In this document: positions 14,174 to 62,427 of the stretch, piece by piece
Layout: each line of letters starts with the position of its first letter
Numbering within the stretch: the first letter of the stretch is position 1
NCBI GenBank assembly: GCA_032622095.1
Contig: CP136062.1
Span: 197,167,887-197,231,886 of the forward strand
Direction: 5' to 3'
DNA: 64,000 bases
DNA from: Siphonodentalium dalli
Lineage: Eukaryota > Mollusca > Scaphopoda > Gadilida > Siphonodentaliidae
The notes under the pieces: generated by a model
Database searches by the model: none
What the model was told of the DNA's origin: nothing
Seen by the model: only the letters and a program-made list of their open reading frames with translations
Program-made: the position numbers and the translations under genes

Positions 14174-15780
14174 AATAATAATATTTCTTTAGCAGAATCA
14201 ATCGAGTCGAAGACGAGATTTATGTTCTTATCGACTTAGAGCACAATTGACCGCACATGATGGGGTTAGCTCCCATTGAGCGTGTGCTGATCACGACACA
14301 CAACCCGTGCGCTGATCGATATTGAACATTGAAGCCCAGGTACGTGACATTCCATTTGCATGCACCCCCACGTATTGGAACTTTCTACCTCAAGAATTTC
14401 AACTGTTAAAATATCCAACCTGCCTCCCCATATATGGTTGTAAATTTTCCTACTGAAGGCCATTTTAAAATGGTCGGCACACATGATTCCTGTTTATATC
14501 CGATCTATAGTAAGTTTCAGTTATACGAATAAGTCAATATGCACCAAGTAGGAGAGACGTGTTCCTCGCTTCGGGTTGTTATCGGATCAGTTGCATCGAT
14601 GTAAATTGATCATTTTTCAAGGTTATGTAAATGTGTATTGGTTTGATGCTGACATGTTTCAATTTCCTCTTGACGGCTGGCAGAACCAGAATTGGTATGG
14701 GGGGGATTTGTAATTTCCTTATTTATAAAATGTCAGCGGTCCCAATCAGAATTCTAACTACATGCTAGCAGTACGCACGAATCAAACCGCGTCTACCTCA
14801 TTCGACCCAATCAATATCAATGAAAAACAGTATCGTTTTGTATTTCAATATTTAACAAGTACACAATGAAGTTGATGGGGTCTTCCTGTTCATTCGACGG
14901 CCATTGTTTCCGATAGAGGTGTGGTAATCCTCAACATCACGGAGATGCCGTCGACAGTTGATTTTCCTAATTGTCAATGGGAATGGAATTTCAACAGCTG
15001 TCAATAAAATAATTATTAGCAGATATTTTCTACCAACCAGCGACAGAGCCGGTCGCTTGCTGCAATGAAAATTCTTTGTTCTCCTTAATTATGATATCCG
15101 CGCACACTTTCAGTGTTAAATTGCTTATAAGTCATGATGTTGGAAACTCATCCATGATTTAACACTGATGTTCATTTTGCGTTACGCTTGTCATAATATT
15201 TTACAAATAAAGGCCAAAATAATGTATGTTTTCCTGTGTATTATAGCATAAGGACAAACGTTATAAACTTATTAAACTATTTCTGCAGACGATTTGTCAC
15301 TAGAAACCGTAAGTTCCCCAAACCAGTATATGGAAAGTTCCAGTGGGTCCTGGTGGCGGATCTGTAACAGATTGGACTATGTTAAAATCCACACAGGGAT
15401 TAATAAGAATCAAAGATTTTATTCAATAACTTATAATTAAATAAAGCACAAACAAATATACAACACAATAAAATTAGTCAGCCTTACATAGTTATAGCAT
15501 TACATGGTACTTTATATCATGGCATGAGTCTATATATAGTCTGGCTACGTCCGTAGAGATCACATTCCATCCGTCCAAAACCTTGGAATATTTTGATGTT
15601 CTGTCCTGTTCTGAATGGGAACGTTATAATATTATAATAACAAACAACGCAGGGAATATATTTCTTTGCCAGGACTAATCTTGTTCCTCAATAATCTAGT
15701 TCACAGTAGGGGGTGGTCCTTGATCGAGATTAATTTGAGAAATTTCATTATTATAAGTAAAATCGGCTCTACAAAGTCAC
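14174..15780. other. No gene seen
   Basis: Mixed-composition filler. I saw no exon-like conserved protein, RNA gene or shared repeat. Confidence 0.5.
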
Positions 15781-34416: not shown

Positions 34417-34733
34417 TTAACCCTTTACCCAACAGAAGAGCCCTGTGCCAATGCATTCTCTTATATATGCGAGTCGACCATAGGTCGCCTCGCATATATA
34501 AGAGAATGCATTGGCTTAACACATTAAAAATTATTAAATTGTTAAAGATTGTAAGAAAAAATGGTAAAAAGTGTTTTTTTAGGCCAATGCATTCTCTTAT
34601 ATATGCGAGGCGACCTATGGTCGACTCGCATATATAAGAGAATGCATTGGCACAGGGCATAACTGTAACTATCACAATGTGGTCAAGGAGCCGGTTCCAA
34701 TGATATCCATATTTGTATGGTTCTATTGAGACA
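34417..34733 (+). mobile_element. TTAA MITE family A, long form, right-truncated
   Basis: It starts TTAACCCTTTACCCAACAGA, contains two near-perfect palindromes and the extra segment (ATAACTGTAACTATCACAAT, TTGTATGGTTCTATTGAGAC), then leaves the family sequence near 34733 before the terminal repeat. Confidence 0.85.
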
Positions 34734-36560: not shown

Positions 36561-36960
36561 TTAACCCTTTACCCAACAGAAGGGCCCTGTGCCAATGCAT
36601 TCTATTATATATGCGAGTCGACCATAGGTCGCCTCGCATATATAAGAGAATGCATTGGCTTAACATATTAAAAATTATAAAATTGTTAAAGAATGTAAGA
36701 AAAAATGGTAAAAAGTGTTAAAAAAAGATTTTTTTTAGGCCAATGCATTCTCTTATATATGCGAGGCGACCTATGGTCGACTCGCATATATAAGAGAATG
36801 CATTGGCACAGGGCATAACTGTAACCATCACAATGTGGTCAATGAACCGGTTCCAATGATATCCATATTTGTATGGTTTTATTGAGACAGACCCCAAGAT
36901 ATTTTAGGCTGTTGAAGCTTTATTTGGCCGGTTTTGGCGGTTTGTTGGGTAAAGGGTTAA
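36561..36960 (+). mobile_element. TTAA MITE family A, long form, full length
   Basis: This is the best reference copy: TTAACCCTTTACCCAACAGA at the left and TGTTGGGTAAAGGGTTAA at the right. Two palindromes of about 69 bp are inside; the right one spans 36739-36807 from GCCAATGCATTCTC to GAGAATGCATTGGC with centre CGACCTATGGTCG. The spacer between them has AATTGTTAAAGAATGTAAGA. The extra segment (36816-36940) matches the copy at 29650 in reverse. Confidence 0.9.
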
Positions 36961-45560: not shown

Positions 45561-46187
45561 TGCATTCTTAGAACATGCTCATGCATGACTGTTCGTCTTC
45601 TTTTTGCATGTTGTCCAGACAGATGTGACTATAGTTTCAGAACGATAGAGGGTCTCCGAAAGATTTATTTTGAGGGAAATGACAAAACAGGAAGGACTTT
45701 TATTCCCTTTCTGTTGCTTAATATATATTAACGACCTTTTAGTCTCCTTTAAAAAAAATCACACGTTGTGCTGCAACTTCACAGAAGCCCACATAATACT
45801 CCAACTATAACAGATGAGATCCCACCATTATCCAAATTAAAGCTCGGATTCGACAATGTTTCGCAAAAATGCAAGATATATTACATTAAATGGCGGTTTA
45901 ATTCTTCGCAAGTCAAACTGAAAGTCGCGATAATCATTGAATCCAATAACGCTCAAGTGGATGCAGATAGGATCTGGATACCAGGAAATTAAATGATCCT
46001 TGAGGAATTCAAAATGCATTCATCTAAGAGTGGCGCAGAAAAAGTTGTCAAGCGTGGTGCGTCTGATACATTGAATATATACGTTGTTGGGATCATTACG
46101 CCTATATATAATTCTAAAAGCTATTATAGATGGAATTGGAACTTACCAGTAAAATAATTAAGGGAAGGATTATAATATAAACAGTTT
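45561..46187. other. No gene seen
   Basis: ORFs of about 60-74 codons on both strands, none recognised. Confidence 0.45.
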
Positions 46188-46599
46188 AGGGTACCTCCAT
46201 ACACTGGCAAGTGTGCACGGTACATGGCTTCCAGGCGTCTCGTCGTATAGAAAACCACTTGGTGCTAAAATATGAACGGCAATATGCATATAAATTGCAT
46301 CTGTACCACAGCTTACTACGTGAGAAGTAAAATCTCTGTAGTTCCACATGTGGAGATGCTACCGGAATTTTCCTGTAAATAGCATATAATTCTCTCGCAG
46401 TCATACAGTATTTGAAGGCAAATGCAAGTAGCACCGTTACAAGTGGAACTACATAAATTTTACTTCTAATGACGTTAACTTTGGCAAAGATGCATGTTAT
46501 ATACATGTTTCCGTTCATATATTCTGGCACCATGTGATTTTCTATGACGAAATGCCTGCAAAACATACCGTGCACATTTACAAGCGTATGAACGTACCC
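46188..46599. mobile_element. Long foldback MITE, PIF/Harbinger-like
   Basis: GGGTACCTCCATACACTGGC with AAGTGTGCACGGTA pairs with TACCGTGCACATTTACAAGC and GTATGAACGTACCC. Pairing continues inward (GAGAAGTAAAATCTCTGTAG with complement AATTTTACTTCTAATG), so almost the whole 412 bp is one imperfect hairpin. TTA flanks both ends, the usual target for PIF/Harbinger elements; the class assignment is inference. A one-armed relative is at 51800-52060. Confidence 0.78.
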
Positions 46600-46607
46600 T
46601 TAGAAGG

Positions 46608-46646
46608 GTCATTTTAGAGGGGTCATATTAGAGGGGTCATTTTGCG
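46608..46646 (+). repeat. Short tandem repeat AGAGGGGTCATTTT, three units
   Basis: GAAGGGTCATTTT, AGAGGGGTCATATT and AGAGGGGTCATTTT follow one another between the foldback element and the LINE. Confidence 0.85.
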
Positions 46647-46855
46647 ATGTCGAGTTTGTCTGGGGGCATCACCACTTGTGTTTAGAGCAGAACAATAATT
46701 ACCAGAGAGAGAAATAGTTTTATCCTCCATATCAGAAGATAATATGTTACAATCATACACAATTATATACATTACATGATATCACATTACAAAATATAAA
46801 TAATGGCAATTCGTTGTCGATTATCATAGGAAATTAGTGTATATATATGCGAAAT

Positions 46856-47439
46856 TCATCTACACAACAAGCAAATAAAGCAGACACAATGTCTAAAAAG
46901 TTGTTCCTCGTCACAAATGAGGTATATTTCCGAGCATATACATCCACCGAAACAGTATGCTAGAAACGTTATGTCGGTCATTGAATCTAACATATTGTAA
47001 ACTTCAACGGTATAGTTGTCAATAATAAAATACCAGAAAGAGTTTCGCGTTGTCAGTGCGAACTCGAAAGAACAGTCGGTGTATATATATACGTACATAT
47101 GAAACAACTGGTTGTAAAACGCCCGTTGGCAATGGTGACATAGTGAATCGTTGTCATATGTCGTTCTGTTGAGAATGTTAGCCATCTGAATACTTAAAGC
47201 AGAGAAGGGCTGCTCTTCTCGCCATAAACACCATATTCTCCAAGTGCTAAATGGGTCAGGTTTAACTTGGTAGAAAAAGTGCATATCCGATAAATGTGGA
47301 TTATAATATATCTCACGTGAGTAATGGGCAACAAGTCTTTCTTTAATCAATCGCTTCCACGTTGTTAGAGACGGAAATATGCCTGAGTTAGCAAATGTTA
47401 CGATAATGTCATACAAATCATACGTTTTAAGGATTTTAG
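46856..47439 (-). pseudogene. LINE ORF2 C-terminal zinc-knuckle region
   Basis: The open frame of 186 codons (47416-46856) continues the ORF2 tail after a frameshift near 47430. It has FPSLTTWKRLIKERLVAHY and a Cys-x2-Cys ... His-x4-Cys-like cluster (SLCHHCQRAFYNQLFHMYVY), as at the end of many LINE ORF2 proteins; the last Cys is displaced. The frame is intact to a TGA at 46856. Role in family: nucleic-acid binding during integration. Confidence 0.75.
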
Positions 47440-49196
47440 TTATTTCCTTGAGGAAGCCTTTTTTGTGCGACCATAAATGGGGTTACCGTGGAGATTGAAT
47501 AAAAATATTTCTAGAGCATGCCTGTGATTACTCGGTGAATGTACCAATGTGTCTAGGAACAGTAACTTTCTGCGCTGAATTTCATATTGGATTGGCAGAA
47601 TACCAAGCAGGGAGAGTGAGAGAATCGTGCTGCTTCTCTGAGGAATGTGTTGCATGTTTTTAATACACATGCGATAAGCACTTTCTAGCATTTTCATATT
47701 AGTTTTTGTCAGATCCCACCACATCTCGCAACCGTAAAGTGATTTAGGAGTGATAACGTGAGTGAGAAGTTTTAGGTTGGTCATAGGGCTAAAATCCTTG
47801 GATATTGGAGATCGACAAGCATTTGCGTAGAGTTTGAGAGGCTCGTTCTATGTTGGGTGTGTGTGAGCACACATGATCCTGAATTATGCCGAGGTGAGTC
47901 ACTTGTTTTACTACAGATATAGAACCAGGTCCAAGATAAAATGACTCGTGTGCTGTGGTCCCAACGTTGCGAGCGTTAAAAATAACGACATTGCTTTTTT
48001 CGACTGAAAATTGAAAACGCCATTTAATGCTGTACGCAAAGCATATGTTGATAAGTCTCCTAAGGCCACCTTCAGTCAAAGAAGTGACGGCAATGTCATC
48101 CGCAGTTGTGGGCGACGAGCACGTTAAGGAGCTAATGTGTAGGCCATCTGGATGATCTGCTAGAGAACTTACAATGTCGTCAATAAAAATAAGGTAGAGG
48201 AATTAAGGGGGATAAGACTACTCCTTGCCGCGTGCCTTGTTTAATTTGGAATGGTTGAGTTATAATTCCTTTATGAAGTATGTGACTTTCGACGTCTGTC
48301 TACATATTGTGAAATAGTCTGAGGAAGTCGCCTCTCACTCATTTTTCATACATTTTATAGAGCAACCATTCGTGCCATACGCAATCAAAAGCTTTTCGTG
48401 AATCGAGAAATGCTGTGAAAAGACGCGAGCTATTGGAATTGGCAAAGGCGACACCTTCCTGTAACTCGAATGCAGTCACCGAACAACCAACGCCCTTCTG
48501 GAACCCGTTTTGTAAGGTATTTGGGAAATTATTGAAAGCTTGGGCTTTGCCTAAGCCTTCGGAGAATAATAATCTCAAATAGCTTATAAACAACTGGGAT
48601 TGCTCGGTAGCTGTCTGGATCTTGAATAGGCTTTGGTTCACCTTTGTAGATCGGCACAACAAGCCCCTTCTTCATAAGAGGAGGGATGTGCGTGAACTGG
48701 AACATGGAAGAATATAATAAACATAATAAGTTATGAATGGCGACAGGAGCATGCAAAATGAGTTCATTTGTTAATGTGTCAATACCGCCAGCTTTATTTC
48801 GTTTGAGCCCCTTGAGTGCACTAACGACTTCGGTCAGTGAGACTGCACTTGTTGAGTAATTGTCGCCATGTTTGTCATCACTGCATTTGATGTACATGTA
48901 TTCCTCAAGTTTGGAATGAACAAAAGATTGGAATTCTGAGTCACTGTGTGTAGAAGCTCTATAGAGTTCCTAAAAATAACTTTGCCACCCTCTAGGAATA
49001 TCGAGGGGATCCCGATACATAACACCATTGAAAGCCATTTCGGAACTTTCAGAAACGCTACTAGCTGATTTGGGACGAACAGCTTCCCAGAAGCTCTTGT
49101 GGTTATTAACAGCAAATGTTTCAATGTTATGCACCGCATTCCGCATGTGAGCTTTAACTGCAAGACGGTAAGCTCTACGAAAACGACGTTTGTCAT
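47440..49196 (-). pseudogene. LINE reverse transcriptase domain remnant
   Basis: Conserved blocks in order: VVSALKGLKRNKAGGIDTLT (fingers), VVPIYKGEPKPIQDPDSYRA, then palm motif A FLDSRKAFDCVWH with catalytic Asp at 48402-48404, motif B QGTRQGVVLSP (about 48208-48240), motif C at 48095-48106 reading TADD where Y/FADD is usual, and KWRFQFSVEKSNVVIF. The thumb/C-terminal part has ITPKSLYGCEMWWDL. There are frameshifts near 49200, 48570 and 48230, and a stop at 48339. Both catalytic Asp pairs survive as codons, but the frame does not. Confidence 0.9.
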
Positions 49197-50311
49197 CTAT
49201 ACGCGCGGTACGTTTCATTAATAAACGCAGATGGGCGTCCCGCTATCACCCACCGTTTTCTGCTAGCTAAGATGGCTCTATGCAATCCATGAATGTCACG
49301 GGTCCAGTATGGTTTTGAGTGGTGCTTCGATTTTGGTGCGGGACTAGATTTTTGAGCTGCAGAGAGCAACACACTAACTAAGTCGGAGTAAAATATATCC
49401 AATGTATTTTCATTGGTAATAGTTGTTGGAAGATTCGCCAAATCATTACTCAGAATAAGTTTATATCGTTCAATGTCGATTTTCTTCCAATTTATTGTTT
49501 TCCGACGAGGACTATTAGAGTTATCGGACGTTATACTCGTGATGAGTGCTGTGCAATTCACTGGCCGATGGTTCGAAGTGTTGATGGCGTCATCATCTAA
49601 AATTGAATAATTAGACATGATATCAACTCTACATTCGTGTACCGTGAATAGTGTGATCAATGAGCGAAGACGATGATTCGGGACAATATGGCACAAAGGG
49701 ACACACATGGGCCTTTACAGGACTGTAATGACATCAGCGAAACCATATTGTGCTCGCTTAGAAAAATTTCCATCGCGTCCGATCTGGCACTACGTTTAGG
49801 CCCTATACTTTGGAATACTCTGAGTTTGTTATAGGAAGGTGCCCATTGAAATCTCCCATCAAGATAACTGATCCGTGAGACGAGTAAGTTTCGATCAGTT
49901 CAGAAAGATCGGACAAGCATTTCAAGTATGATTCTTCGGGATGATTTGTGTTCGGAAGATAGACTTGGAATGTGAATAGAAATTGTTCGTATTCAAGTCT
50001 GATACGAATGATAATGATACGCTCATTGTGTACATCGACGGTGGACGCATTGATTGACCGAGATTTCTCAACGAGGAATGCGACACCATCTCGATAATAA
50101 CTACCACCCGTTTTCGTAGTGATAGCTCTACCACATTTGGCGACACTTGTGAGATTCCAACTATGTCATAACTCTGTGTATTTTGATTTAGTAAAGAGGA
50201 CAAGTAAGAGGCGCTGGATTGGATACCAGTGGCGTTCCATGAGATCACATTGACAGGGCTATAATAAACAGGTACATTATTACACGAGAGTGAATTACGT
50301 TGTTCAGCCAT
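49197..50311 (-). pseudogene. LINE endonuclease domain remnant
   Basis: The first Met of ORF2 is probably at 50311 (MAEQRNSL), followed by VNVISWNATGIQ, which carries the catalytic Asn of APE-type endonucleases. After YDIVGIS the frame shifts and about 35 residues, including the expected Glu region, are missing. The GDFN block is at 49845-49856. The terminal Ser-Asp-His motif reads Ser-Asn-His (49568-49576, codon AAC). The domain would nick target DNA in a live element; with these losses it should be inactive. Unusually, ORF1 and ORF2 are in the same open frame across 50312, with no stop between them. Confidence 0.85.
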
Positions 50312-50938
50312 GATATCATTCGTATTGAATGAGTCTTTGGGTCGGTCACAGAATGATCTCCAAGGGCAACTATATACATTTGGTGGCCAGAAATTTACCG
50401 AACAGATGCGCGAACACGCGTCCGCTGGTACTGTGATCCTCGCCGACATGCTATTTCGAACAGTTTTGCAGGACATAACTTTAACGTACGTTGGGGTAAT
50501 TCCGCGATCCTGCAGATAATCACGAATTACCTTCTGATCGTCGTATGGAGAAACGCCTCCTATGTAGAAACTTTTGGTAGTTGGAATCCGATATTCATTT
50601 TGATGTTCATACTGGTTAGAACTAGATAAAACAGGAGAGCCAAGTTCGTAGAATGAGTCGCATCCAAGAGAAACAGGTACGGAATTTAGTGAAACATTCC
50701 ATGAGTGCTCATTTGACTTAGGACTCAGTGCTCATTTGACTTAGTTTCACGGTCAGCATTTTCCCTCTCAACGACATTCTGTTCAAGAGAATGAATGCGC
50801 GATTCATAATTGTCAATGAGAGTTTTTAATAACTGGTCGAAGTAGCTTGCCATTGTATCGAAGTTCGTATTTGTGTTCTCGATAGAACGCTTCATAGATT
50901 GGTTGAGTTGATCGATCCTGGCGTTTGCTCTTTAAAAA
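50312..50938 (-). pseudogene. LINE ORF1 remnant
   Basis: Reading leftward from 50938, a coiled-coil-like stretch (QLNQSMKRSIENTNTNFDTM, later SRIHSLEQNVVERENADRET) ends at a TGA at 50727-50725. In the next frame a second domain (KSFYIGGVSPYDDQKVIRDY) ends in FWPPNVYSCPW, a C-terminal block I associate with mollusc LINE ORF1 proteins. A direct duplication of 23 bp (AGTGCTCATTTGACTTAG at 50704 and 50727) sits at the frame change, and its length accounts for the shift. ORF1 proteins of this type bind element RNA. The start codon is lost or lies in the 35-bp repeats upstream. Confidence 0.8.
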
Positions 50939-53930: not shown

Positions 53931-53934
53931 TATT

Positions 53935-53990
53935 CGGCCAATGGAGCTTTCCACAGAGGCGACACCCACAGCGGTAGTCCCACCAACTGG
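53935..53990 (+). repeat. Dispersed repeat R3, copy 1
   Basis: CCAATGGAGCTTTCCACAGA with GGCGACACCCACAGCGGTAG is nearly the reverse complement of 55990-56042. Confidence 0.7.
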
Positions 53991-54114
53991 TAAAAATACT
54001 TTATCCACATAAATATTGTCTGTTACCCGAGATCGACTACCGACGTGAACACATCAGCACTTGCCCTTATGTTAACTAGCTGAAACAGAATCATGTGTAT
54101 GATTCGTTCAAATT

Positions 54115-54365
54115 TGATCTTAAAATATTATAATTAATTATTTTTTATTTTCTTTTTAGATTTTTAGATTGAATCTTTAAAATGTGTTTTAATTTTTTAA
54201 TTAATTTTTTTTTTTTACTTAATTAAAAATTTTTTTTAATTAATTTTAAAATTTACTTTTTAGATTTTTAGATTGAAACTTCTTGCTAAAAAATTCTAAA
54301 ATTTGAAAAAAATTAAAACATTTTTTTTATTTGTTTAAAAAAATTAATTTAAAATATAAGTTCAT
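54115..54365. repeat. Very AT-rich low-complexity stretch
   Basis: TTAATT and AAAATTT words dominate; TTTTTAGATTTTTAGATTGA occurs at about 54156 and 54257. Confidence 0.85.
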
Positions 54366-54384
54366 TATAACATCTGCCGTGGTA

Positions 54385-54475
54385 CCCCGAGGCACCACAC
54401 CAAATTTGGTTAAAATCGATCAAGGGCTCTGGAAGAAAAATTGCATACAGACCAGAACAGACAGACAGATCACTG
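54385..54475 (+). mobile_element. Retroposon-type 3' tail fragment
   Basis: ACCAAATTTGGTTAAAATCG, CAAGGGCTCTGG and CAGAACAGACAGACAG resemble the tail at 27950-28030. Only the tail is present. Confidence 0.5.
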
Positions 54476-55685
54476 AACTCTAATATATCTAAACCAGAGA
54501 ACATACATTCGTTTTGCCATTAAATGTGAAAATTATGACAAGTGTCATGCTAAATGAAAAACATTGTTATAATCACGGATAAATTTATAACATCATGCCG
54601 CAAATATAAATATCAGTATATTATGATTTGACAACAAACAAGAAATTATGGCATTGAAATCCATGTAAAAAGGACGACCGTGCAGTCACGACCTGCACTA
54701 CTCAGACTAATAGGTGTTGACTTATATGAACATCAAGATTTAATTAACTATAAATATTTCTTATAACCAATTGGGCCTACGTACCGTACACGAAGTTGGT
54801 TGCTTGTGGTAGGGGGTTGGGTCTGTACCTCACTATGATAATTATCATATTGTACTCAATACATGTATCTTCCAGCCTTTCGATCGTGGCTCGCCGGGGC
54901 CATTTTTTTGACTGGCACATATGCCCATTCTAAATTTGGATGAAATATTAGTTGTACTCGCCTCCACAACCCTTGGCCTTGGTTGGAAATTGGGGTTATT
55001 ATGAGTGAGAACTCGGGTTTACCTCCTCATAATTTGGGTTGTTTGTTTGTTTCAAATCACAACCCAAATCATTAGAATATAAGTAACAGGTTTTATTTGT
55101 AGGCCTACCTGTACAAATTCTATAGTGATTTAATAGGTTGGGATTTGGTCAGTTTGATTACAATTGCATGGAACAACATTTATACCAGTGCGCGGACTCG
55201 GACCCATGCACTATGAAACAACGTCAACCCAACCAAACCTAATGCGAACCATGCCAACATTATGCCTGCTTTGTGTGCTATGTCGCGTCGCTGTCAAAAC
55301 GTCAATAACTTTCGCGGGAAAATGCGCGTGCCAATATGACGTCGCTTTGGATACAACATATGACGTAACCTAACAGTTTACAGAACATGATTCTACTAAT
55401 TTACTAAACTAAAGAAAAGTTTATTTAGTTATATGATAAACATTCAAGATATTTACGATATGAATTATGTTGTTTTCGTAAGGTGGCTAAGGAAAATTTG
55501 CAGTTTTACGTAAATTTCCGACATTTCCCGAATGGCATAGCAACCCGAGTCCGCGGGCGACAATATTTATGATTTAAGTAATGTTTATTGTTCAAAGAAT
55601 AAAGCATGCAATGCCTTAACGCAATGAATACTCTTATGTTGGCTATATGAACAGTTACATTTTGTAGTTTTAATTTAATTGCAAT
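54476..55685. other. No gene seen
   Basis: Filler; the ORF at 55164 has no recognised motif. Confidence 0.45.
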
Positions 55686-55689
55686 GACG

Positions 55690-55760
55690 TTTCAAGATGG
55701 CGGCCCCTCAAATCCAAGATGGCGGCGCCCATAATTCAAGATGGCGGCGCCCATGTTCGA
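55690..55760 (+). repeat. CAAGATGGCGGCGCCCAT tandem repeat, three units
   Basis: CAAGATGGCGGCCCC, CAAGATGGCGGCGCCCATAA and CAAGATGGCGGCGCCCATG follow each other at about 20-bp spacing. Confidence 0.9.
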
Positions 55761-55775
55761 AAGCGAACTTAGTAT

Positions 55776-55844
55776 AAGGACGACCTGCGCATATGTTGCT
55801 GCGCAACATATGCGCGACTGGGCTGCGCCCAGCTGGTCGTCCTT
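55776..55844. repeat. Perfect three-way-junction palindrome
   Basis: An outer stem AAGGACGACC (55776-55785) pairs perfectly with GGTCGTCCTT (55835-55844). Inside are two perfect hairpins: GCGCATATGTTGC / GCAACATATGCGC (55787-55815) and CTGGGC / GCCCAG (55818-55832), both with the loop TGC. Junction bases are T, GA and CT. No protein or known RNA family fits. Confidence 0.85.
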
Positions 55845-55989
55845 AAAAAAGTTGTTTGAAAATAGCCAATTTAACACTGAATGTATGCTTGGATATCAAA
55901 ATTAGGGTGAAGAAAGATGGCGTCGAAAACATCTCCGCAGCCAGCGGCCGGCTCGGCATCTGATTGGTCGAATATATTCTAATAAATTG

Positions 55990-56042
55990 CCATTGGGCGG
56001 GACTACGCTGTGGGCGTGGCCTCTGTGGAAAGCTCCATTGAC
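55990..56042 (-). repeat. Dispersed repeat R3, copy 2 (inverted)
   Basis: CTGTGGGCGTGGCCTCTGTG with GAAAGCTCCATTG is the reverse complement of the block at 53937. Confidence 0.7.
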
Positions 56043-56045
56043 ATA

Positions 56046-57109
56046 ATACAATGTATTTGTGCCTGAGCGACATGATCGATGATAGATTAACAGGTAATCA
56101 TAATTTAACTGTCGGAGTCGCAAATATATGTGATCTATCTACAAGATCGCACCACGTGCGTTGGCTTCTAGTCCTCCATCCACAAATCGCGCGCGAGTAT
56201 CTTCGAGCCACAGCGTCATTAGGCAACATACATCAAGAATATAACAACGCGCGTCAGAGATCACTGACACATGTACCAAAACCTGGTTAATTACGCGCGC
56301 CGCGTGTATACTAATGCCTAAATTCTTGTTTCGCCTGCATGGGCGCTGGAATTTACTCTGGGGTTTTTATTTATAGATATTGGGAATTTTTGGGACGGAT
56401 TTAAAAGTCGAACTGCGCGACCCAGAGGCCGAGTCAGGTAAAAGGTGTAGTTGGGAATTTCAATTTCGTTTATTGTCCTTTACATTATTATGTCAATAAT
56501 GTTGATTTTTTTTTGTGACAAGCTATGTCAATTACAACTAAAAGAAATGAAAAAGATAATTTGCAAGTCTTATATTTCAACTTTTATAGACATCTTTCGT
56601 TCTGCAGCCCACTGAGGGTTGTGGTCGGAGACGGCCGAGTCGGCCACCGGTTCGTTAATTTTACTTCCCATGTCGTTAGCTTTGGTAGATATTAATTTTA
56701 TATGCATTTTGTTGTTATTCATATTCTGGCACAATAGTGCCAGTGTATGACCGTAGACCAACCCTCCACGAATCCACGGTAATTACCTGCAAATTTGCCA
56801 AAATTGCATAGATTGTTTTAAAACAAATCGTAAGATGGCAGCTATTGCACACACTTGAATGAAAAAAAAATATGATTTTCGGATTAAGGACCTTCCATCT
56901 CTATTGTACCACACCTCGAAGCTATGCAATTCTATGAGAGATTGCACGATTGCCAGATATTGGAAGGCTAATTTCGGCCATATGTATGTCATAAAAAACC
57001 CAGGGACGTGGCTATTGGGTTTCCGTTGGGGTGTCCACATTGATATTTTCAGATTAACCTCCTCGCACCTGACTTCCCCCTTCTGTGGGAACGTCCTAAT
57101 TGGTACCTC
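56046..57109. other. No gene seen
   Basis: ORFs of up to 131 codons overlap on both strands at 56783-57197, but neither has a recognisable motif. Confidence 0.45.
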
Positions 57110-57290: not shown

Positions 57291-57741
57291 ATTGTTATTT
57301 TAACGGAATTCTGAGTTGGTGGTTCGCGAAAACAATATATTTTATATTCTATAATTACAATCATGGGTATATAATATATGATCTTGAGCGCGTTACCATT
57401 TCTGACTATGGTTTTCTTGTATCCCCCTACTGACCCAATGATGATATTTCTACCACGGGTTAAAAACCCCTGGTCAAGTGATCCTTCTAATGTGCTAGTT
57501 ATGATGCTGGTGGGTCTTGGGGAATTGATATGACGTTGGTAGGGAAAACTGATGCTGTTAAGAAAAAGTGCAATTATTTTTTATAAAGTTTTCATTTTCG
57601 CGGTGTTTGGCTAATCCGTGAGATTTGAAAAAGCCAGTGTCTGTATGTCACATTTCAGAACATATATATCTTAGAACAAAAATAATAATGGCTGCGCTGG
57701 TGTTTGTAAAACGACGTGAATAAGTTTAATCACTAACTCGC

Positions 57742-57933
57742 GGCCATATATTGGATCCATCCAGCCCCGCGTCCCGTGGTTTTAGTGATACAGGTCAAAT
57801 TTATTTCTGGAGTAGCATTTCCATATATGGAGCTTTTGAATATTCATTACTTCAATATATGGAAATGCTACTCCAGAACTTTGAGCTGTAGCACTAAAAC
57901 CACGGAACGGGCCTGGATGGATCCAATATGGCC
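57742..57933. repeat. Long inverted repeat, about 85-bp arms
   Basis: GGCCATATATTGGATCCATC pairs with GATGGATCCAATATGGCC; pairing continues through CGTGGTTTTAGTG / CACTAAAACCACG and GGAGTAGCATTTCCATATAT / ATATATGGAAATGCTACTCC. The loop is about 25 bp. It is probably a foldback element. The ORFs across it are mirror images and not genes. Confidence 0.85.
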
Positions 57934-58150
57934 ACGATTCAGTGAGAAGACGTATGGACATCATGATTGTAGTCCATTTGCAATAACTAATACAAACAGC
58001 ATTAAACTATTTCGCAATATATGTTTTTGAATGTTTGATATACGCAATTGCTTTTCCTGGATATATGTTCAGATTATCGGAACACCACGAAAATTACAGC
58101 AATAACGGTACGTTTTCTTAACAGCTTCAGTTTTCCCTAACAGCATCATA
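57934..58150. other. No gene seen
   Basis: AT-rich filler before the LINE 3' end. Confidence 0.4.
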
Positions 58151-62160: not shown

Positions 62161-62427
62161 TTAACCCTCTATATACTAAATTGATTCTCCCATTCAGTTA
62201 TGCAAGTATTCATTAGAATAGTCTATTGTTCATTTGGAGGGATGTTTAGGTAATAAAAGCAGATGACACAATGATGAAAAGATAATACAAGTGCAGAGGA
62301 TTCATATTCATTTGTGGGAAATGTTCAGATAATAAGTTCAACAACTATGGTCGTTTGTTGAACTTATTATCTGAACATTTCCTAAGGCAACTACTCATCA
62401 ATGGGTATTTAGTATAGCCAGGGTAAA
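62161..62427 (+). mobile_element. TTAA MITE family B, copy 2
   Basis: It starts TTAACCCTCTATATACTAAA and ends TTTAGTATAGCCAGGGTAAA (decayed right TTAA). An internal hairpin AAGTTCAACAA / TTGTTGAACTT is near 62330-62370. It matches 23351-23591. Confidence 0.8.

Follow-up and report, generated by a model that had tools for sequence, protein, structure and literature searches.

A branched palindrome in the genome of Siphonodentalium dalli is very probably the 5'-terminal hairpin of a Helitron2/Helentron-group transposon

A perfectly paired palindrome of 69 bases lies at positions 55776-55844 of a 64,000-nucleotide stretch of the genome of the scaphopod Siphonodentalium dalli (the window; part of contig 2 of an assembly of 2.23 Gb in nine contigs). 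We conclude with high confidence that it is a hairpin forming the 5' terminus of a rolling-circle transposon in the Helitron2/Helentron group, a young, non-autonomous element that is present in many copies and lies here on the minus strand at 54637-55845. The perfect pairing at this locus would accordingly be that of a transposon terminus, with no local RNA gene. The rolling-circle reading was reached before the genome data, because of a second copy of AAGGACGACC in the window, a repeat at 15023-15240 and the description of Helitron2 ends in excerpts of PMC3627910. The genome then provided copies, sharp ends, unfilled sites and a gene-bearing relative with the same ends, which bear out the suggestion, made in an earlier sequence-only reading, that the palindrome could be the end of a mobile element.

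Fold and surroundings of the palindrome

Folding confirmed what that reading had described, namely a 10-bp outer stem, inner hairpins of 13 and 6 bp, 29 Watson-Crick pairs with no mismatch, and TGC in both loops. On the plus strand, AAGGACGACC (55776-55785) pairs with GGTCGTCCTT (55835-55844) to form the 10-bp outer stem, within which a long hairpin (13 bp; 55787-55799, loop TGC, 55803-55815) and a short one (6 bp; 55818-55823, loop TGC, 55827-55832) meet at a three-way junction; T after AAGGACGACC, GA between the inner hairpins and CT before GGTCGTCCTT are unpaired. T55775 and A55845 extend the outer stem, giving 30 pairs in total. Read as parts of the element, with the array beside it, these features are:

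55776..55844, minus: three-way-junction hairpin, 5'-terminal (fold and junction scan; its majority form is found 69/69 in the gene-bearing element)
55835..55844, minus: 5' asymmetric terminal inverted repeat (ATIR), AAGGACGACC on this strand, one strand of the outer stem, at the element terminus
55776..55785, minus: downstream partner of the 5' ATIR, GGTCGTCCTT on this strand, closing the outer stem (fold)
55818..55832, minus: short inner hairpin, 6 bp here and 7 bp in the majority form (fold, 40 loci)
55787..55815, minus: long inner hairpin, 13 bp, 3-nt loop (fold)
55693..55758, plus: three 22-bp units with a YY1-like motif, CAAGATGGCGGC, inside the element and adjoining the hairpin

The perfect three-way junction exceeds chance: a scan of the 64-kb window for such junctions placed the palindrome first with 30 bp, the runner-up having 22 bp, and in 100 Markov-resampled windows they reached at most 21 bp. 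As RNA, the window palindrome folds with a z-score of -8.8, and none of 200 shuffles was equally stable. When plain hairpins were scanned in 80-base steps, which cut the palindrome, 11 places in the window were more stable.

The window copy differs from the form that prevails in the genome. At 34 of the 40 loci that we read, the base corresponding to 55817 is G, and at the other six, the window among them, it is A; because of this base the short inner hairpin has 7 bp in the majority form and 6 bp here, the window copy having one Watson-Crick pair fewer (G-T on the minus strand). On that strand the majority form consists of a 10-bp stem, a 7-bp hairpin and a 13-bp hairpin, with GCA in both loops and three unpaired bases, one at each position between or after the stems, and its predicted DNA fold (run on one locus, L034) has -34 kcal/mol and a z-score of -10.9.

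The earlier reading had also placed three repeats directly before the palindrome. An array with a 22-bp period is indeed present, but only two units carry CAAGATGGCGGCGCCCAT exactly, the remaining one being a variant (CAAGATGGCGGCCCCTCA), and 21 bases separate the last exact CAAGATGGCGGCGCCCAT unit from the palindrome. The motif CAAGATGGCGGC, which we take to be YY1-like, recurs, partly in variant form, at the corresponding places of the gene-bearing element. An open reading frame of 54 amino acids that runs from the ATG of this motif through the palindrome was not accepted as a gene, because 136 frames of the window are at least as long and it has no Pfam match.

Other searches of the window gave no Rfam match at gathering score and no tRNA (ARAGORN, bacterial code); two sub-threshold Rfam matches near the palindrome are weak and were taken as chance. 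Exact searches of viral contigs with two pieces of the palindrome, the tandem YY1-like pattern and a piece of a nearby inverted repeat found nothing, nor did a search of prokaryote genomes with one 21-base piece of the palindrome. We also took as chance an 18-mer of another palindromic family that occurs in six viral contigs (L001-L006) and a 22-base match of 55680-55900 to two records of one phage (E 0.2). The window holds other repeats of its own. A palindromic family beginning GCCAATGCATTCTCTTATATATGCGAG has many copies at 5400-43405, some in facing pairs (for example 34441-34515, 34583-34657, 36585-36659 and 36739-36813). In 13 aligned copies of it (11 distinct), changes on both sides of a pair number 10 cells against 4.6 when shuffled (0/500), mostly in the apical stem; counted by pairs, the signal is weak (4 against 2.7, with 78 of 500 shuffles as high). 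Further long, near-perfect palindromes at 57700-57960 and 62301-62380 apparently belong to different repeat families, and 46186-50731 on the minus strand carries what is left of LINE-like sequence, degraded and matching endonuclease and reverse transcriptase weakly, under the curated cut-offs.

Copies, ends and target sites

The palindrome has many relatives: a genome search with it, a check that the sequence-only reading had proposed and in which a lack of other copies would have spoken against it, returned 395 first-look candidates, the 40 scored ones, window copy included, matching at 99-100%. We read the best 40 of the 395 (L007-L046; the window copy is L010), and a palindrome with at most two differences from the majority form terminates every one of them. 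It is identical to that form at 34 loci, one base off at four and two bases off at two, figures that are biased and useless as a measure of constraint because the copies were picked by palindrome score; a count of paired changes is likewise unsuited to this family, because the chosen copies vary too little. Two extra copies found beside chosen ones are one base off the majority, the second with a 3-base insertion as well.

To the left of the palindrome the loci share a block of about 1.2 kb with AACAAG at its left boundary, and beyond the A-run on the right the sequence varies among loci, except that L009 and L012, and L013 and L023, share a right flank. The 40 may therefore not all be separate insertions, all the more as L036 and L039 sit in copies of one repeat. 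At 32 of the 40 the left end is sharp and within the fetched stretch. Of the eight loci extended to 10 kb, five have it farther off behind inserted DNA, two (L048, L049) have no left end within 10 kb, and the last is the gene-bearing element. Most of the bounded copies (28/32) measure 1150-1260 bp; these 28, the full-length copies, share 96.0-98.9% identity with their own majority sequence, gaps uncounted, and for this reason we regard the family as young, in keeping with the recent origin that perfect pairing had been held to imply. The window copy is 97.6% identical to the same majority sequence, to which it contributes. L014, L032 and L045 each have another copy, whole or partial, nearby in the same orientation. 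The parts of the window copy outside the palindrome, and the two window sites without an insertion, are:

54637..55845, minus: whole non-autonomous element, about 1.2 kb, with its 5' end at about 55845 and its 3' end at 54637 (...CTTGTT on this strand), from the shared block
54670..54679, minus: 3' ATIR, GGTCGTCCTT on this strand, an inverted copy of the 5' ATIR, 33 bp from the 3' end
54637..54669, minus: 3' terminal tail with a weak ATGG...CCAT stem at 54648-54664 seen by eye (alignment to the gene-bearing element)
55845..55850, no strand: A-run (T-run on minus) at the 5' junction (32 copies compared)
36660..36760, plus: unfilled counterpart of the L021 insertion site, an A-run of 7 between GTGTT and GATTTT
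15023..15240, minus: diverged relative of the host repeat, without the element, matching both flanks of the window copy, which are adjacent in it

The window has one further occurrence of the outer arm AAGGACGACC, at 54670; the chance of this 10-mer on either strand in 1173 bp is 0.0013. The two ATIRs agree exactly over 10 bp and are flanked at either end by bases that do not match (T against A at one, A against G at the other). Apart from this repeat, the ends of the element are not inverted copies of each other, with a score of 42 against up to 56 in 200 shuffles (54600-55861). From the 3' ATIR to the 3' end there are 33 bp in the window copy, 34 in the majority sequence and 36 in the gene-bearing element; over this stretch the latter two match at 43 of 44 aligned bases plus a 2-base gap, and over the stretch before the ATIR at 87 of 104 with six gap columns, and this better agreement of the last bases is independent of how the copies were chosen. 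No stable hairpin is predicted between the 3' ATIR and the 3' end, the ATGG/CCAT stem having 4 bp only. A hairpin GTGCAG/CTGCAC beside the 3' ATIR was rejected as a key feature, since it is missing from the gene-bearing element.

Copies lie at or in A/T runs. On the plus strand the A-run after the palindrome is 3 bases long in two copies, 6 in 21, 7 in seven and 9 in two, and no clear base preference outside it was seen among 30 copies. Unfilled counterparts of six of the 32 copies (L009, L021, L028, L036, L039 and L044) were found in other fetched loci. Five of the six have 5-7 consecutive A at the unfilled site, and their filled versions carry one or two more A in total, with no other base duplicated; for the sixth, L044, the unfilled sites differ in sequence. 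The filled L009, L012, L036 and L039 and unfilled stretches of L025 and L028 lie in or beside one other repeat, at varied places and in both orientations. At the window locus itself, 15023-15240 matches 54490-54597 (77%) as well as 55862-55917 and 55937-55977 (78-82%) and lacks the sequence between, 54600-55861. Around the inserted element, 53931-53993 and 55987-56048 form inverted repeats of 84%, which are either the termini of a host repeat of greater age or a pair of inverted copies; 53931-56048 as a single transposon with these ends was rejected, as the copies bound the mobile unit at 54637-55845.

A gene-bearing relative and the mode of movement

One locus among the 40 read (L017, extended as L050; contig 3, C3:265648404-265660128) spans 11,725 bp from the 5' end to a matching 3' end. 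Its 5' hairpin is identical to the majority form at 69 of 69 bases, and its positions 70-556 align to the majority sequence with 464 matches, 21 mismatches and 21 gap columns. It holds an open frame of 1865 amino acids (1837 from the ATG) with Pfam matches to OTU (E 1.1e-6), DUF6570 (8.4e-20), Helitron_like_N (1.8e-26) and the PIF1 helicase (1.2e-24), directed away from the palindrome. The C-terminus of the helicase (Pif1_2B, 1.7e-7) lies in a second frame of 189 amino acids, and this copy for that reason looks interrupted. In the protein, HLH occurs at residues 1038 and 1517 and Y...Y..K at 1174, and we take the first HLH and the Y...Y..K to be the HUH and two-tyrosine Rep motifs; 18 distinct sequences of solved structures match it, in the helicase part. 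The frames scanned, the 189-residue one included, have no Pfam match to an endonuclease domain. Another open reading frame of 480 amino acids (L050:8434-9876) has a TatD DNase domain (2.1e-37), which is either a captured gene or a working part of the element; by eye, its N-terminus looks zinc-finger-like. The genes of a relative of this type probably move the short elements.

How the 5' end is recognised by Helitron2 and Helentron elements is, to our knowledge, not settled. A 69-nt branched end that is identical in the non-autonomous majority form and the gene-bearing element is a defined substrate, which would serve for Rep binding, nicking and the proposed ATIR switch. In our model the 10-bp outer stem would be the 5' ATIR paired with its own copy just downstream, enclosing two more hairpins. 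The HUH-type Rep-helicase of full-length relatives might recognise this branched end as a single strand, nick at the border between the T-run and AAGG, and peel one strand away. Once transfer arrives at the 3' ATIR, this repeat would pair with the 5' ATIR, disrupting the hairpin and ending transfer, as proposed for Helitron2 in excerpts of PMC3627910, and the product would join another T-run without target duplication. Because the 3' stem is weak, we infer that a larger share of the task may fall to the ATIR pair and the branched 5' end (compare the terminator of a bat Helitron, excerpts of PMC4778049). A bolder version, in which Rep recognises the T shape of the end in convergence with the Rep-dependent telomeres of parvoviruses and the TatD DNase is a working part of transposition, is speculative, and we think it rather unlikely to hold as a whole.

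The palindrome might instead be the 3' end, a terminator hairpin, with RepHel encoded in the opposite sense. A bat Helitron has a hairpin near its 3' end that serves as terminator (PMC4778049, excerpts), and some Helitron2 elements carry RepHel reversed (PMC3627910, excerpts). RepHel here runs away from the palindrome, however, as in most elements, and an ATIR that is terminal at the palindrome and subterminal at the opposite end is the asymmetry described for 5' and 3' ends; we therefore regard this orientation as improbable.

A non-autonomous DNA transposon of the MITE or foldback kind, moved by a DDE transposase and having the palindrome as one of its terminal repeats, would sit easily with the other palindromic repeat families of the window, such as the GCCAATGCATTCTC family. 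The flanks of the 32 copies, however, show no target-site duplication (the longest shared match is under 2 bases in 23 copies, 2 in six and 3 in three), nor do the unfilled sites, except possibly for bases of the A-run, and the ends lack inverted similarity beyond the 10-bp repeat. The gene-bearing element has RepHel between the same two ends, which makes a DDE origin less likely still, and we consider it very improbable.

Template switching during replication can create and mend perfect stems (PMC8794818, excerpts), and the YY1-like array beside the palindrome would suit a structure selected in RNA or in a promoter. Perfect pairing made or repaired at this locus, or selected there, is nevertheless scarcely credible, as the same palindrome ends all 40 loci, and neither the RNA structure nor the replication slippage once considered for it is needed to account for this one. 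The window copy, moreover, is one pair below the majority form, so probably its palindrome came with the insertion and pairing was lost, not gained; the change at 55817 may predate the insertion, in a source copy, because six of the 40 loci have the window base. Template switching may still apply to the ancestor of the family and is contradicted as the origin at the window locus.

A SINE-like retroposon in which a short A tail follows a 3' stem-loop, suggested by the A-run of at least 6 that directly follows the palindrome in 30 of 32 copies, can practically be dismissed, given the lack of target duplications, the uniform left ends, an A-run already present in five of six unfilled sites, and a RepHel partner with the same termini.

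Several points were counted against a Helitron2/Helentron assignment: the weak 4-bp 3' stem, the ATIR distance of 33-36 bp, the biased choice of the 40 loci, a single gene-bearing locus with a split helicase frame, the two loci without a left end, and the shared flanks.

Comparison with known systems

In excerpts of PMC3627910, Helitron2 elements have ATIRs of 8-15 bp, the 5' copy 0-2 bp from the 5' end and the 3' copy about 20-30 bp from the 3' end; a 5' hairpin that includes the 5' ATIR and another hairpin between the 3' ATIR and the 3' end; a T-rich target without duplication; and RepHel mostly running away from the 5' end. The family described here has a 10-bp ATIR, AAGGACGACC, next to the T-run and terminal if that run is mostly target, a 5' hairpin whose outer stem is this ATIR, insertion at A-runs, and a gene-bearing partner, at one locus and with its helicase in two frames, with RepHel and the same ends. 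It differs from the Helitron2 of those excerpts in that the 5' hairpin branches into two arms at a three-way junction, the 3' hairpin is weak, the 3' ATIR lies slightly farther from the end, and the one gene-bearing copy has a TatD DNase gene.

A T-rich target, a boundary T-run whose length varies and insertion without duplication are shared with Helentrons and their non-autonomous HINEs, including oyster Cg_HINE, as described in excerpts of PMC4067079 and PMC7492417. There subterminal inverted repeats are 11-15 bp in published families, beside the 10 exact bp found here, the 3' repeat of mite HINEs is 38-60 bp from the end (PMC4067079), farther than here, and an OTU protease is reported, which has its counterpart in the OTU match of the gene-bearing element. 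Against those descriptions, the frames scanned here hold no endonuclease domain, the large branched palindrome is at the 5' end in place of a clear 3' one, and there are three 22-bp units and no satellite-like array. The features thus fit the Helitron2 group (PMC3627910) and largely the Helentrons (PMC4067079, PMC7492417), as far as these excerpts describe them.

The same features are at odds with canonical Helitrons, DDE elements and retroposons. The Helitron1 ends (5'-TC and CTRR-3', inserted between A and T) are replaced by T-run/AAGG and CTTGTT, the target-site duplication of DDE transposons and MITEs is absent from the copies compared, and the retroposon pattern of a duplication with an A tail added at insertion is not seen.

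The inverted terminal repeat of AAV is T-shaped, a stem with two short arms that have 3-nt loops, and is a substrate of an HUH Rep. The likeness to it is one of fold shape only, with no sequence relation implied, and the structure described here is a transposon end of about 70 nt and no virus telomere. Open-access papers searched for 'Helitron' together with 'three-way junction', or with 'TatD', in these wordings and in text as distinct from figures (such as 5C of PMC3627910), yielded none. What is new here is an unusual, branched 5' hairpin in an otherwise known kind of element.
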